Of a stretch of DNA of 64,000 bases, positions 1,853 through 62,350 are shown piece by piece. The stretch comes from Janthinobacterium silvisoli. GTDB taxonomy: Bacteria > Pseudomonadota > Gammaproteobacteria > Burkholderiales > Burkholderiaceae_D. Numbering within the stretch: position 1 is the stretch's first letter; every line of letters begins with the position of its first letter. Under the pieces are notes generated by a model, which had not been told where the DNA came from, did no database searches, and was given only the letters and a program-made list of their open reading frames with translations. The stretch spans positions 62,001-126,000 of the forward strand of contig NZ_JACHCL010000001.1 in NCBI RefSeq assembly GCF_014200725.1, read 5' to 3'. Position numbers and translations under genes: made by a program.

Positions 1853-2659
1853 ATGGACAGCGTAGACCAACCCGCCGCAGCGAGCACACTGTCCATGTCA
1901 ATCAGCACCACAGGCCGCATCCGCAACAGCATCGCCGAATTGGGCTGGCGCGATGCCGTCTGGCACGCGCTGGCGCGCCTGCTGCAGCGCGTGCCGGGCA
2001 AACGCTGCGCCTTGCACCGCTATCAGTTCGTGGCGCAAGGCGTGGCGCCCGGCAGCCTGTGCGGGGGACGCGGCAAATCTATCGTGGTCGCGCCATGCCT
2101 GGGTATGGAAACGCTGCCGCCAGCCAGCCAGCGCCCGCCACGTCCGCCAGCGACGCTGACAGCACGTTTTCGCCAGGGCGCGCGCTGCCTGCTGGCAAGC
2201 GCCCCGCCAACCTCGCAAACTCTGCTGGCGGGCTGGCTGTGGATGGTGCACGGCGCTTGCCAGGAAGACGAGGTACGCGCCCGCTACGTGCTGCCATCGC
2301 TGCAATCGTCGTGGGATCTCGACATATGGGTCCATCCCGAACTACGCGGCGGCCTGGTCTTCGCCCGCCTGTGGGAAGAAGCCAATACCTTGCTGCATGA
2401 GCAAGGCGTGCGCTGGTCGTGCAGCCGCATTTCGCGCTTCAACCGGACCTCGATGGCCGCCCATGCGCGCCTGGGCACCCTGGACCTGGGCACGGCCACC
2501 TTTTTACGCTGCGGACACTGGCAATGGATGCTGGCCAGCCTGCCGCCATACCTGCACCTGTCGCGGCGGGCAGACAGCTTCCCCAGCTTCATTTTCGACA
2601 CCAGCGGCTTGCCGCACATTCCTTCCCTGGAGCTGACATGCCGCATTCTGAAACAGTAA
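1853..2659 (+). CDS. GNAT-like acetyltransferase of the exosortase locus
   Basis: About 268 residues. The middle (roughly residues 145-215) has the pattern of an acyl-CoA N-acyltransferase: a strand with YVLPSLQSSWDLDIWVHPE, the helix RGGLVFARLWEEAN, then SRISRFNRTSMAAHARLG, which matches the usual N-x-x-S-x-x-x-H-x-x-LG segment after the CoA site. It opens the rightward operon and overlaps the acyl carrier protein gene by 22 bases. The start is uncertain: ATG 1853 and ATG 1895 both lack a clear Shine-Dalgarno sequence. It may acylate a sugar or lipid intermediate of the exopolysaccharide, which is inference from context. Confidence 0.6.
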   Translation: MDSVDQPAAASTLSMSISTTGRIRNSIAELGWRDAVWHALARLLQRVPGKRCALHRYQFVAQGVAPGSLCGGRGKSIVVAPCLGMETLPPASQRPPRPPATLTARFRQGARCLLASAPPTSQTLLAGWLWMVHGACQEDEVRARYVLPSLQSSWDLDIWVHPELRGGLVFARLWEEANTLLHEQGVRWSCSRISRFNRTSMAAHARLGTLDLGTATFLRCGHWQWMLASLPPYLHLSRRADSFPSFIFDTSGLPHIPSLELTCRILKQ

Positions 2660-2913
2660 ACGAGGCCCTGGAGACATCGGTCAGGCAGATCCTGCGTGCC
2701 ACGCTGGGACTGGGCCAGCGGCCGCTGACGGCGGCAACACCGCTGCTGGGCAGCTTGCCGGAACTCGATTCCATGGCCGTCATCAGCGTGATCAACGCGC
2801 TGGAAGACCATTTCGGCATCACCGTAACCGACGACGACATCCATGCGCGCCACTTTGCCACGGTCGGTAGCCTGGTCGATTTCATCCACGCCATCACCAG
2901 GCCGGACCGATGA
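2638..2913 (+). CDS. Acyl carrier protein
   Basis: A 91-residue carrier protein. The phosphopantetheine attachment site is Ser45 in the motif LPELDSMAVISVINALE, and the flanking helices match the ACP fold, including the second recognition helix and the acidic TDDDIH segment. The start at 2638 has GGAG seven bases upstream and overlaps the GNAT gene. Its own TGA overlaps the next start as ATGA. Exosortase A loci commonly carry such an ACP between the ligase and the hydrolases. It probably carries an acyl group for envelope or exopolysaccharide modification rather than serving bulk fatty-acid synthesis. Confidence 0.9.
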   Translation: MPHSETVNEALETSVRQILRATLGLGQRPLTAATPLLGSLPELDSMAVISVINALEDHFGITVTDDDIHARHFATVGSLVDFIHAITRPDR

Positions 2914-3794
2914 CACGTTCGTCTACCAGCCTGCTACCGTTCTTCCTGCCGGCCAGCGGCGGCCAGCGCTATTGTTTGCTGCACCTGCCGGCGCCTGAAT
3001 CGGGGCAAAAGCGGCCGCCGCGCGGCGGCATCGTGTATCTGCATCCATTTGCCGAAGAACTCAATAAAAGCCGGCGGGTGGCGGCGCTGCAGGCGCGCGC
3101 TTTCGCTGACGCCGGCTACAGCGTGCTGCAGATCGACCTGCATGGCTGCGGCGACAGCAGCGGCGATTTTGCCGATGCGCGCTGGGCCATCTGGCGCAAC
3201 GACGTGCACCTGGCCTGCGCCTGGTTGCAGCAAAGGGTGAGCGGCCCATTGACACTGTGGGGCCTGCGCCTGGGCGCCCTGCTGGCGCTCGACATCGCCC
3301 GCCATCCGCCTGTGCCGCTGGCCCGTTTGCTGCTATGGCAACCCGAGCTGTCGGGCCGGCGCAGCATGGACCAGTTCCTGCGCCTGCGGCTGGCTGCGCG
3401 CATGCTGGCCGATAACGGCCAGAAAGAAGCGCCGGTCCACACGCATGCCCAGCTGGCGGCCGGCCAGAACATCGAAGTAGCTGGCTATACCCTGGCTCCC
3501 GAGCTGGTACACGCCATCGACGACATCGATGCGGCCAGGCTGGCGCCCACGGCGCCAGCGGTTCCTGTCTATTGGCTTGAATACAGTGCCAGCACGGCGA
3601 CACTACCGGCGCCGGCAGCGCGCCTGGTCCAGCAATGGCGCAGTGAAGGAGCGCAGCTGCACATCGCGGCATTCGACGATGGCGCCTTCTGGTCCAGCGC
3701 GGAAATCATGGAATGCCCGCAGCTGCTGCAGGCTACGCGCCAGCTGTGCGGCGACTGGCTCACTGAACCGGGGAGCATGCAGCATGGCCGATGA
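2910..3794 (+). CDS. Alpha/beta hydrolase, exosortase A system-associated type 2
   Basis: A 294-residue alpha/beta-hydrolase-fold protein of the family annotated as hydrolase 2 of exosortase A systems. The oxyanion region is GGIVYLHPFAEELNKSRR, followed by YSVLQIDLHGCGDSSGDF. At the nucleophile elbow the sequence reads W-G-L-R-L-G (residues 117-122), so the position normally held by Ser, Cys or Asp is Arg120. Either the nucleophile lies elsewhere or the protein is not a conventional hydrolase. It is coupled to the ACP by ATGA and overlaps the type 1 hydrolase by 11 bases. The role in the pathway is unknown. Confidence 0.85.
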   Translation: MTRSSTSLLPFFLPASGGQRYCLLHLPAPESGQKRPPRGGIVYLHPFAEELNKSRRVAALQARAFADAGYSVLQIDLHGCGDSSGDFADARWAIWRNDVHLACAWLQQRVSGPLTLWGLRLGALLALDIARHPPVPLARLLLWQPELSGRRSMDQFLRLRLAARMLADNGQKEAPVHTHAQLAAGQNIEVAGYTLAPELVHAIDDIDAARLAPTAPAVPVYWLEYSASTATLPAPAARLVQQWRSEGAQLHIAAFDDGAFWSSAEIMECPQLLQATRQLCGDWLTEPGSMQHGR

Positions 3795-35999: not shown

Positions 36000-36806
36000 A
36001 TGGACAAGCAACTGCTTTTGATATGCGCATTGACGTTTATCATCCATATTATCGGCACCCTCACCTATTCCGTCCGCATCGCCGGCATCCGCACGCGGCG
36101 CATTGCCGTGTCGCTGGCCTTGTTCAGCATCCTGGTGCTGGTATCGCGCACCTCAAACTCCTTCCTCGGCCCCTTCCTCGCCAAGCGCGTGGAAACCGGT
36201 ATCGACCAGCATATCGCTGCCAGCGCTTTATTAATCGACTTCCGCTGGCTGCTGGTCTCGGCCAGCTTGGCCACCATCCTCGGCGCCATCCTGATCCCCA
36301 CCTTCCAGCGCGTGTTTTGCCGCGCCGTCGACCACTTCCAGATACACAGATCAGTGCCCAAACTCATCCTGCACGGTTTTTTCAAAGGCGGCCTTTCCTA
36401 CCTCAAAACCTCCGCCAGCCTGCCCAAACCCGCCAACGTCATCGGCCTGCGCGAAAAGTCGGGCGTCTCGCTTTCCATGACAGCCATGAACGTCATCGCC
36501 ACCGCCCTCTGGACTGTCGGCGTCTTCGCCGCCCTGTACGCCGGAGTGCTGGACCCCAGCGTGCGCGTCACCTCCAGCGCCCTTTCATCGATCATCAACG
36601 GCGGCGCCACCGTCATGATGGCCGTCTTTATCGACCCGCATATGTCGGGCATGACAGATGACGTCATCGAAGGCAAGATCGAAGAATCGCAATTCAGGCG
36701 CGCCGTGGTGTGGCTGGTGGGAAGTAGATTAGCCGGAACGGTGATTGCGCAGTTTTTGCTGGTGCCGTCGGCGGTGGTGATTGTGGGGGTGGCTAAAGGG
36801 TTATGA
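36000..36806 (+). CDS. amj: Amj-family lipid II flippase
   Basis: A 268-residue membrane protein with about six transmembrane segments, matching the Amj (alternative to MurJ, formerly DUF2837) family: TFIIHIIGTLTYSVRIAGIRTRRIAVSLALF is split over TM1 and the first loop, followed by LVSRTSNSFLGPFLAK. Amj proteins flip the peptidoglycan precursor lipid II. The start at 36000 has AAGG upstream. It is the last GC-rich gene before the AT-rich island. Whether a MurJ gene also exists lies outside the window. Confidence 0.85.
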   Translation: MDKQLLLICALTFIIHIIGTLTYSVRIAGIRTRRIAVSLALFSILVLVSRTSNSFLGPFLAKRVETGIDQHIAASALLIDFRWLLVSASLATILGAILIPTFQRVFCRAVDHFQIHRSVPKLILHGFFKGGLSYLKTSASLPKPANVIGLREKSGVSLSMTAMNVIATALWTVGVFAALYAGVLDPSVRVTSSALSSIINGGATVMMAVFIDPHMSGMTDDVIEGKIEESQFRRAVVWLVGSRLAGTVIAQFLLVPSAVVIVGVAKGL

Positions 36807-37077
36807 TATTCCGATACTAGGACACTCGTAATCTACAACACATGAAACTTGCAGTAATAAGATACAACATATTTACACAAGAAAGGATGTTTTCTTGCAA
36901 CAGCCTTGCCACTTACCATAAATGTATCATATAGTCTTAAAAAATTTTCATAAAAATTTCGACTCAACTTACTATCCGAAAACATAAATTCTCTATGTAG
37001 ATAAAATAAAAAAATGATGTTATCATTAAAGGAATATTTTATGATATCTAAAATTCAGAAAAAATGGAGAGTTAAAT

Positions 37078-37920
37078 TTGAAAACTATAAGCGTGATCAA
37101 TATGAAGGGTGGAGTTGCAAAAACTACTTTAGCAATAAACTTGGCCGATTGCTTGGTTAGACGTCATAGCTCAAAGGTGCTCATAGTCGATGTAGACCCT
37201 CAATTTAATGCAACTCAATGTCTAATGAAACCGGAAGTTTATGTTGACCATCTGAAATCAGGTGGAGATACGATTGTAAGTGTTTTCGATAGAAATAAGC
37301 GAGCAGTTTCGAGCACTGTTAATGCAGCAACAACAAAATCAGCAAAAAAAGCTGAAGAGATAACTGTAGTGTCTGTTAAACCGAAGTTAGATCTTCTACC
37401 TGGGAATCTAGAATTATATCGTCTTGAAATGGCTCCCGGCGAAGGACGAGAGAATAGATTAAATACGTATTTAAGTAAGTTATCAAAAGAAAATACATAT
37501 GATTTCGTAATAATCGATACACCACCAACTCCATCAGTTTGGATGACAAGTGCATTGATCGCCTCAGATTATTATCTAATTCCAGTAAAAGCAGATCCAT
37601 TATCGCTTACTGGAATAGATCTTCTTCGAAGTATAATAGAAGAAAAAATAGAAAATTTTAATTTAAATATTAAATGTGCGGGACTTGTATTAACAATCAC
37701 AGAATCATCTACAAATGTTTACAATGAAGCAAAAGGAACATTAACTAGAGATATTCATTGGAAAAAATTTCTTTATAAAGCAACTCTTCCAAAACGCACA
37801 AGAATTGCAAGCCGGCAGATCAAACAGATGCACATTCTCGATGGAGACTGTATAGATTCAAAAACTGCAATCGCCAATATAACGACTGAATTTTTTAATT
37901 GCGTGGCGGAACATGAATAA
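37078..37920 (+). CDS. ParA-like P-loop ATPase of the AT-rich island
   Basis: A 280-residue ParA/MinD-superfamily ATPase. The deviant Walker A reads MKGGVAKTTLAINLAD, Walker A' is V-D-V-D-P-Q-F-N-A-T, and Walker B is FVIIDTPPTPS. It lacks the N-terminal DNA-binding extension of plasmid P1-type ParA. It starts with TTG, supported by GGAGA 7 bases upstream. No parB or parS lies beside it, so it is unlikely to be a standard partition system. The 3' end overlaps the next gene by 8 bases. It probably works with the two genes that follow. Confidence 0.85.
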   Translation: MKTISVINMKGGVAKTTLAINLADCLVRRHSSKVLIVDVDPQFNATQCLMKPEVYVDHLKSGGDTIVSVFDRNKRAVSSTVNAATTKSAKKAEEITVVSVKPKLDLLPGNLELYRLEMAPGEGRENRLNTYLSKLSKENTYDFVIIDTPPTPSVWMTSALIASDYYLIPVKADPLSLTGIDLLRSIIEEKIENFNLNIKCAGLVLTITESSTNVYNEAKGTLTRDIHWKKFLYKATLPKRTRIASRQIKQMHILDGDCIDSKTAIANITTEFFNCVAEHE

Positions 37921-38449
37921 CCCAAAGAAAAACTCTTATCCAAGAACTCCATCGGAAGAAATTCAAATAAAATATGCCATAGACTTCATAGAAGAATTGT
38001 CATGGTTATTTGAGTCAAAGAAAAAATTAAATTTCCCCATAGTTTCAGAATTATTGCGGAAACGTCTATTGCCCACTCCAAGAGTAGCAGATAGCTCCGC
38101 AGCTTATGTATCACCAAATCCAAACATACACTATTTAATCGGAATACTACCTAGGCTATTTCAAGACGAAAATCTTTTTTTAAAAAATGAAGAAATTGCT
38201 GAATTTGCAAAGGAAGTATTGGGAATTGAAATTAGCAGAGTTGAAAAAAGATCAAAATATGAACTAATAGGTTTAATTGTATGTCAAACAAATGAACTAA
38301 ACGACGAAAAACTTGATGAAATGGTGCGCTCTCTTTCGCATATTGCCGGAAATAATGACAAATTAAATCTGATGGCTAACGAGAAAGCATCTACAGGTTT
38401 TTCTTGGAACGAAGCCATTCGGAAATTGGCGGTTGAAAATGACTCGTGA
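37913..38449 (+). CDS. Hypothetical protein of the ParA cassette
   Basis: A 178-residue soluble, mostly helical protein, charged and lysine/glutamate rich, with no signal peptide. Its start overlaps the ParA stop and its end overlaps the next gene, so it is translated as part of one unit. Recognisable stretches are AIDFIEELSWLFESKKKL and NPNIHYLIGILPRLFQDE, but no family is recognised. Position suggests a ParA partner, replacing ParB; this is inference. Confidence 0.75.
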   Translation: MNNPKKNSYPRTPSEEIQIKYAIDFIEELSWLFESKKKLNFPIVSELLRKRLLPTPRVADSSAAYVSPNPNIHYLIGILPRLFQDENLFLKNEEIAEFAKEVLGIEISRVEKRSKYELIGLIVCQTNELNDEKLDEMVRSLSHIAGNNDKLNLMANEKASTGFSWNEAIRKLAVENDS

Positions 38450-39164
38450 AAGATTGGAAGATTTTTCGCTACTAAAGGACTATTTAAAAAAATATAACAT
38501 CCAAGACAACATAAAAAATAAATTATTTCTAGAAAATCTAAAAGCAATACACAAAAGTTATTTTTCGCTACTTACTTGGTCGGGGGAAATTAAATTTTCC
38601 GAAGGCTTATTTAAATATAAATCCATTGAAATATCAAAAGAAATCAACGAATTAATTCTTGAATCTTTCTCAGACATCGGTTCATCCATATTCAATTGGA
38701 CATATGGAGGATATAAGACATCCCGAGTTATGTTGAGGTCAGCAATTGAAAATTTCATTCGCGCCATATCCGGAATTGAAAAGAAAGAGCAGCTTCAAGA
38801 AAAAAATATATATTCACTTTTTGACGGCGCGGCGACTTTAATAATTTTCAAATCATCGGAGGAAGTTAAAGCTTCGTTCAAGCAATTGCATTCTGACTAC
38901 AAAGAACTTTGCCGCGATGTGCATAGTGCCCTCCCAGAAAATATGGAAAAAATTTCTACTTTATCAGATTTACCTAAATTTGATGCTGAGAAATCCAAGA
39001 AATGTTGCGAAATAATATGCAGAGTTACAAAAAATATTTTAATATTATTATGCCTTATATTTTTTAATTTTTTTCACAGTATGCATCATAGAAATAAAGA
39101 AAATATTTTAATTTCATTACCAAAAAAAATAAAACCTTTCATTAATGGAATGAATGAAATATAA
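38439..39164 (+). CDS. Hypothetical protein of the ParA cassette with C-terminal hydrophobic helix
   Basis: About 241 residues. The N-terminal two thirds is helical with S-I-F-N-W-T-Y-G-G-Y-K-T-S-R and L-R-S-A-I-E-N-F-I-R-A. A short Y-K-E-L-C-R-D-V-H-S-A motif is vaguely like the histidine-containing segment of HEPN-like or Abi proteins but not enough to assign one. Near residue 200 comes a hydrophobic stretch (ILILLCLIFFNFF) that could be a membrane anchor. ATG 38439 is preferred to a TTG two codons upstream. Last gene of the cassette; a terminator follows. Confidence 0.72.
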   Translation: MTRERLEDFSLLKDYLKKYNIQDNIKNKLFLENLKAIHKSYFSLLTWSGEIKFSEGLFKYKSIEISKEINELILESFSDIGSSIFNWTYGGYKTSRVMLRSAIENFIRAISGIEKKEQLQEKNIYSLFDGAATLIIFKSSEEVKASFKQLHSDYKELCRDVHSALPENMEKISTLSDLPKFDAEKSKKCCEIICRVTKNILILLCLIFFNFFHSMHHRNKENILISLPKKIKPFINGMNEI

Positions 39165-39193
39165 ATAATTAAACATCCGCAACAGAATGAAAA

Positions 39194-39221
39194 AAAGCCG
39201 CTATCCCCCGATAGCGGCTTT
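39194..39221. terminator. Bidirectional rho-independent terminator
   Basis: A perfect 12-base stem (AAAGCCGCTATC and GATAGCGGCTTT) with a 4-base C loop lies between the convergent ParA cassette and purL. An A-run precedes it, so it suits leftward purL transcripts; TTT follows on the rightward side. Confidence 0.88.
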
Positions 39222-39284
39222 CTCACTCCTACCCCAGCAACAGCGCCTCAAACCCATCTCAAGGCGCCGTTGAAGAGTAAAAAA

Positions 39285-43325
<4,041 letters not shown>

Positions 43326-43510
43326 GGTTGGAAGGTGGTTGATGCAGCGTGGCTGCGGGTTAAAGGTAGGTATGACAATATCTTTCGTACGGCAAATTTC
43401 CTTTGCGCGCATTATACCCGTTTTACCCCTGCCTTATTAGCCGAAGTTGTGCGTTTACTGCCATTTTACGCCGCAAAACCGCACTTCCAGACCCGCATAC
43501 AACAGTCGCT

Positions 43511-62178: not shown

Positions 62179-62255
62179 TGGCGGAGCGGACGGGACTCGA
62201 ACCCGCGACCCCCGACGTGACAGGCCGGTATTCTAACCAACTGAACTACCACTCC
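62179..62255 (-). tRNA. tRNA-Asp (GTC), copy 2
   Basis: 77 bases including an encoded CCA. On the leftward strand it reads GGAGTGG acceptor, the anticodon loop CTGTCAC with anticodon GTC, and the T-arm GGTTCGAGTCC. It differs from copy 1 at only two positions (62209-62215 and 62230 regions). Confidence 0.95.
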
Positions 62256-62273
62256 TAAAGAGCGTATTTTTTT

Positions 62274-62350
<77 letters not shown>

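Follow-up and report, generated by a model that had tools for sequence, protein, structure and literature searches.

A rare, mobile three-gene operon with a ParA-type ATPase and a predicted HEPN-like protein between amj and purL of Janthinobacterium silvisoli: a candidate anti-phage defence system

The window analysed here is a stretch of 64,000 nucleotides from Janthinobacterium silvisoli (assembly GCF_014200725.1, contig NZ_JACHCL010000001.1, positions 62,001 to 126,000 of the forward strand). Between its core genes amj and purL lies a 2.1 kb operon of three genes, coding for a ParA-type ATPase and, further downstream, for two proteins termed P2 and P3. These names refer to the genes and proteins of the trio throughout, and the virus is always written out as phage P2. 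The locus comprises the following features:

36807..37077, plus strand: AT-rich left end and operon leader (from the sequence; sister genomes depart from this DNA at the final codons or the stop codon of amj)
37078..37920, plus strand: ParA, a ParA/MinD-type deviant Walker ATPase of 280 amino acids (open reading frame with TTG start; AAA_31)
37913..38449, plus strand: P2, 178 amino acids, all-helical, family unknown, likely an adaptor or sensor (open reading frame, alignment, model)
38439..39164, plus strand: P3, 241 amino acids, likely a HEPN-like helical bundle at about residues 62-211, predicted effector (open reading frame, model, fold searches)
36000..36806, plus strand: amj (alternate to MurJ), left core flank (Pfam Amj, 2.8e-90)
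39191..39224, minus strand: terminator hairpin of purL, right border of the slot (terminator scan)
39285..43412, minus strand: purL-like gene, which we take to encode phosphoribosylformylglycinamidine (FGAM) synthase, right core flank (open reading frame; conserved flank in sister genomes)

Between 36.8 and 39.2 kb, the GC content drops with sharp edges from about 0.61 to 0.33, the trio having a value of 0.330 compared to 0.614 elsewhere in the window; an AT-rich stretch in a GC-rich core, as described in the original prediction made from the letters alone, is thus confirmed. According to the coordinates, ParA and P2 overlap by 8 nt and P2 and P3 by 11 nt, with the ATG at 38439 taken as start of P3 (the list of open reading frames, ORFs, begins this gene at an upstream TTG at 38433). 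A ribosome-binding-like site, GGAGAG, is located 6 bases 5' of the TTG start of ParA. No fourth plausible gene is seen in the ORF list between amj and purL and, hence, the ATPase comes without parB, in line with the earlier reading. Likewise, neither a phage gene nor an integrase was recognised in this slot. The shared terminator that had been ascribed to the trio, however, has to be reassigned: the hairpin at 39191-39224 is purL's own, because its terminator score is on the minus strand and the conserved purL-side flank opens with it in 13 of 15 sister genomes, irrespective of the insert, if any, next to it. L044 and L047 are the two exceptions; here, the purL match begins about 90 bases further in, with a different hairpin-like sequence visible by eye.

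The first protein of the operon matches AAA_31 of Pfam at 1.1e-40, above cut-off, and among solved structures a Soj-type segregation protein chain (1wcv, 3.9e-19) as well as 8ray. KGGVxK[ST]T, D.DPQFNATQ and DTPPTPS are preserved in all eight ParA proteins of the trio that were aligned (the copies of L004, which is split, L007, which is cut, and L002, which is broken, were set aside), and the trio ParAs display the Walker A with signature lysine, A' and B motifs that define deviant Walker ATPases. PADLOC returned a sole match for ParA, PDC-M28B at 0.0044, spanning 38 residues. A TTG start, as set by the analyst, is found in three of the eight aligned proteins (window 37078, L003 10665, L006 9133) and perhaps keeps expression low. 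In positions 36800-37080, no cluster of centromere-like or iteron repeats was detected; a direct pair of 9 nt and four inverted pairs of short length were the yield of the scan, which diverged single sites could escape. Moreover, neither P2 nor P3 matches a ParB family in Pfam, NCBIfam, PADLOC or PHROGs. Partition homologues of the parB/parS type, named by the original prediction as contrary evidence, were therefore not encountered.

The two overlapping partner genes had been called unassignable, and indeed neither protein has a Pfam or NCBIfam match above cut-off or a PADLOC match at E <= 1; in PHROGs, both fall into families of unknown function (phrog_12497 at 1.5e-19 for P2, phrog_12265 at 2e-22 for P3). 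A protein database yields 175 P2 and 76 P3 proteins, in each case including the window's own. The model of P2 is all-helical and of moderate quality (predicted local distance difference test, pLDDT, 78.9; predicted template modelling score, pTM, 0.55), and fold searches with it gave no usable match. Its N-terminus is basic and flexible, and K112-R113-S114, placed directly before a helix, is invariant in the P2 alignment (A6). P2 is likely an adaptor or sensor.

For P3, a model of higher scores (pLDDT 91, pTM 0.88) was obtained, and the top-ranked fold matches in Foldseek and VIA-align are HEPN chains. The predicted fold of P3 is a HEPN-like helical bundle near DUF5677. R100, E104, Y154 and H162 occur in all 81 members of the P3 alignment and C158 in 80 of them, so that P3 carries an invariant R-x3-E / Y-x3-C-x3-H predicted site. 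A conserved RX4-6H was not found in P3: the string appears somewhere in 33 of the 81 members, at any one position in at most 12, and precedes the invariant H162 in a single one. DUF5677 (PF18928) is matched at E <= 0.1 by nine of the 81 members (best 9.8e-4), all under the curated cut-off, whereas the window's P3 gave no match and none was found in its own genome. An alignment of four rows, drawn from the five DUF5677 matches found in sister genomes, shows R109, E113, Y214, S218 and H222 to be invariant. P3 resembles these DUF5677 proteins in R-x3-E and in Y-x3-[SC]-x3-H, and HEPN chains lead its fold matches, but it remains under the Pfam cut-offs and has no conserved RX4-6H; as a similarity of sequence, the common arrangement is a pattern and not proof of descent. 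The hydrophobic C-terminal helix of P3 noted earlier does exist (best 19-residue Kyte-Doolittle mean 1.92), but the accompanying hint at a membrane helix found no support. A mean of at least 1.6 is reached in just 34 of 81 homologues, and the helix is modelled within the folded bundle (block pLDDT 93-98). Hence, a membrane anchor at the C-terminus of P3 is unsupported.

The three genes are a real, conserved unit. In a collection of species-level genomes, nine loci match P2, and in all eight readable ones, i.e., those not cut inside P2, ParA, P2 and P3 follow each other in identical order; the co-occurrence check suggested by the original prediction therefore turned out in its favour, and the genes do occur together elsewhere. 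These loci belong to Pseudomonadota, Desulfobacterota and Bacillota, the hosts being Pseudomonas cerasi, Halioglobus, Pseudoteredinibacter, Leucothrix (where a contig end cuts ParA), a Desulfobacteraceae genome, Calidifontibacillus and two Paenibacillus. In all nine loci measured, including the window, trio GC lies under flank GC (for L004, the insertion was counted as trio). In Pseudomonas cerasi, ParA is split by an insertion (L004 7804-9632) with two ORFs, both resembling IS21-type transposase genes by eye. The trio is rare, 149 relatives and 398 genomes of the phylum yielding no further genome with it. A near-identity search detected it in 133 of 5426 complete Escherichia coli genomes, with 134 of 135 places chromosomal; as all records had at least 99% identity, remoter E. 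coli copies would be missed. Out of 72,556 plasmid records, only two match P3, and the same two match P2. The first of these records is 4.8 Mb long; in the other, Plesiomonas plasmid p11184, the trio stands behind a replication gene and its ParA is interrupted by stops.

The surroundings of the operon are best seen in sister genomes. An amj match is present in 28 of 40 genomes of the genus (own included), and of the 27 sister genomes among these, 15 (L037-L051) supplied the gap between amj and purL. All 15 retain the purL flank at 89.9-94.3% nucleotide identity. One slot is empty (61 bp), and the remaining 14 contain other AT-rich inserts (GC 0.32-0.40). These are 1.0-3.4 kb long, and each has one or two ORFs that reach 80 amino acids or more. 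No integrase was recognised in these inserts (PADLOC for 17 of 17 ORFs, Pfam for 10 of 17), nor was a partition gene. Known or candidate defence families are matched in PADLOC at E <= 1e-20 by eight of the 14 inserts, followed here by two weaker cases:

L040 and L043: Old
L041: PDC-S06
L042: dGTPase
L044: SIR2 and HerA
L045 and L046 (the latter in two pieces): dCTPase deaminase
L047: NsnA/PD-T4-2-like GmrSD_N protein, N-terminal part
L049: DUF3800 (weaker, 6.5e-15)
L048: HATPase (weaker, 1.1e-6)

At 1e-5, PADLOC gave no match for the inserts L037, L038 (DUF6119), L039 and L051 (UvrD-like). Counted by ORF, nine of 17 in the slot match PADLOC at the 1e-20 level compared to at most four of 43 other window ORFs (Fisher p 6e-4, or 7e-5 if the window hits, RtcR-type and mad3, are counted as two proteins), the long ORFs of one window, rather than other intergenic sites, serving as a rough control. 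On the amj side, the inserts start at the final codons or the stop of this gene, and on the other side most of them run up to the purL terminator; since they share these edges without repeats visible by eye, an exchange by recombination in the core flanks is suggested. DUF6119, DUF3800, HATPase, an unassigned 545-amino-acid protein and a UvrD-like helicase pair are further defence candidates in this slot.

Defence genes also accompany the trio in other hosts, as far as they were covered by a scan of 10 chosen neighbour proteins with PADLOC and 10 with Pfam outside E. coli. A UG13b reverse transcriptase is encoded about 100 bp upstream of the trio in Paenibacillus ihumii; in Paenibacillus foliorum, the trio is preceded by genes for type I restriction (M, S, R) and for a BglII-like enzyme; and its neighbours in Pseudomonas cerasi are PDC-S06 pieces and DUF4238. 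No defence neighbour was recognised in Halioglobus, Pseudoteredinibacter and Calidifontibacillus, for which few or no proteins were scanned. For E. coli, the annotation of six hand-picked records out of 134 was viewed. Three of them show the trio adjoining type I restriction genes and darTG, one has it in a lambdoid prophage, another in an island that also carries Ag43 and CbtA-type genes, and the last (S19-141) in a phage P2-like prophage with tail-sheath and tail-fibre genes on either side. In S19-141, the trio is bounded by 32-nt inverted repeats resembling those of the annotated Z region of P2-EC46 (phage P2 Z-region-type inverted repeats: L063 5524-5555 and 8295-8326; L065 215-244 and 3301-3330). 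The darTG-side copy (L013) has a 2.8 kb block in common with the lambdoid copy (99.6%) and the phage P2-prophage copy (99.5%); this block begins within the inverted repeat, and the island copy (L015) keeps one repeat end. As block and repeat remnants are common to copies in several elements, movement of the E. coli trio as a Z-region-type cassette is suggested, and such cassettes appear to move between element types. In INPHARED, neither the window's P2 and P3 nor the E. coli P3 proteins gave a phage record (the ParA protein was not searched there), and no record covers 80% of the E. coli trio DNA.

Taken together, the trio is a mobile operon, residing in slots and islands which also hold known defence genes. 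An association with defence loci is seen both in the sister slot and among the neighbours in several genomes, and the original idea of a foreign cassette, possibly a defence module or one derived from a plasmid or prophage, is supported by the constant order of the three genes, by these two settings and by one phage P2 Z region. Because the trio fills a slot in which sister genomes carry AT-rich, often defence-like genes, it is likely an immune system. We consider it probable, judging from position, that the operon is an undescribed three-gene anti-phage defence system combining a ParA-type switch with a HEPN-like effector. PADLOC-DB 2.0 (2023) holds no model for it, and no description turned up in literature searches that took in neither paper supplements nor newer defence catalogues; in the main text of PMC13092281, the word ParA is absent. 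Swappable defence cassettes between fixed flanks are likewise a feature of the antiviral systems of phage P2 hotspots and P4 satellites, as described by Rousset et al. 2022 (PMC9122126), but the flanks in the window are the chromosomal amj and purL.

Other roles have to be weighed against this reading. HEPN toxins are common in toxin-antitoxin modules, and the tight gene overlaps as well as the recurrence of the AT-rich cargo in several element types would also suit an addiction module with P3 as toxin, P2 as antitoxin and ParA as ATP-dependent regulator, kept mainly by addiction. Yet, we know of no ParA partner in such modules, and eight of 14 sister-slot inserts resemble defence genes, as do those neighbours that were recognised in several genomes; this alternative, which in practice overlaps with a defence role, is therefore held to be unlikely. 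A different trait, such as lysogenic conversion or nucleoid or cell-cycle control, whose cargo uses the same recombination slots by chance, would agree with the six of 14 inserts that have no PADLOC match at 1e-20 and with the one E. coli copy in a phage P2 Z region. The inverted repeats around the S19-141 trio resemble those of the P2-EC46 record, whose two Z ORFs carry no annotation other than putative lysogenic conversion proteins. As separate settings in Pseudomonadota and Bacillota place the trio with defence genes, such a trait appears very improbable.

The ATPase itself invites comparison with ParABS. By sequence, the ATPase domain of the trio ParA is of the ParA type and its Walker A motif, KGGVxKT, is deviant as in ParABS; its closest solved relatives are Soj/ParA segregation ATPases, and the basic flexible N-terminus of P2 could be that of a ParB-like centromere binder. 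The position after a replication gene on p11184 also brings to mind a minimal partition module of plasmid or prophage origin that became stranded in the chromosome, with P3 as accessory protein, and so does the putative plasmid partitioning system that Rousset et al. 2022 (PMC9122126) report for about a quarter of P2-like phages at another, cos-adjacent hotspot. In contrast to ParABS, neither a ParB nor an upstream centromere repeat cluster was seen, the partners P2 and P3 are fixed, and the loci are mostly chromosomal and often in defence settings. One of the two matching plasmid records measures 4.8 Mb and the other has a broken ParA, the sister-slot inserts lack a recognised partition gene, and P3 has a predicted HEPN-like fold. 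Due to the chromosomal location, the missing parB and repeats and the presence of P3, partition is disfavoured and seems decidedly unlikely.

If the operon acts in defence, ParA and the adaptor P2 would sense the invader and then unleash the effector P3. ATP-bound ParA dimers might sit on DNA, with P2, by its basic tail and the KRS before a helix, coupling the state of DNA or a phage protein to ATP hydrolysis in the manner of ParB partners. Infection could then upset the ParA-P2 balance, and freed P3 might cut RNA or another nucleotide target, leading to growth arrest. To our knowledge, ParA ATPases are known for DNA movement and not for immunity. In the boldest version, which we regard as possible but rather doubtful, this would be the first case of immunity based on a DNA-positioning ATPase of the ParA type: much as a partition machine does, ParA-P2 would patrol the nucleoid, read foreign replicating DNA as a disturbance and fire a HEPN-like effector that uses a different R/E/Y/H centre instead of RX4-6H, so that both sensing and killing chemistry would be new, as would amj-purL as an integrase-free swap slot. 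Should the operon act in defence, bacterial immunity would gain a novel type of molecular switch, along with a HEPN-like effector devoid of the usual catalytic motif, in a compact system present in distant phyla and in the above 133 complete E. coli genomes, and the amj-purL slot could serve as a discovery trap for further systems.

Two minor observations concern the slot genes and the wider window. In one genome (G011, L031), the 3' end of purL matches twice, at about 762-1467 and 2399-3012, on either side of amj, an arrangement that looks like a purL-end duplication around this gene. Furthermore, two tandem tRNA-Asp(gtc) genes are located at 62179-62350 of the window.
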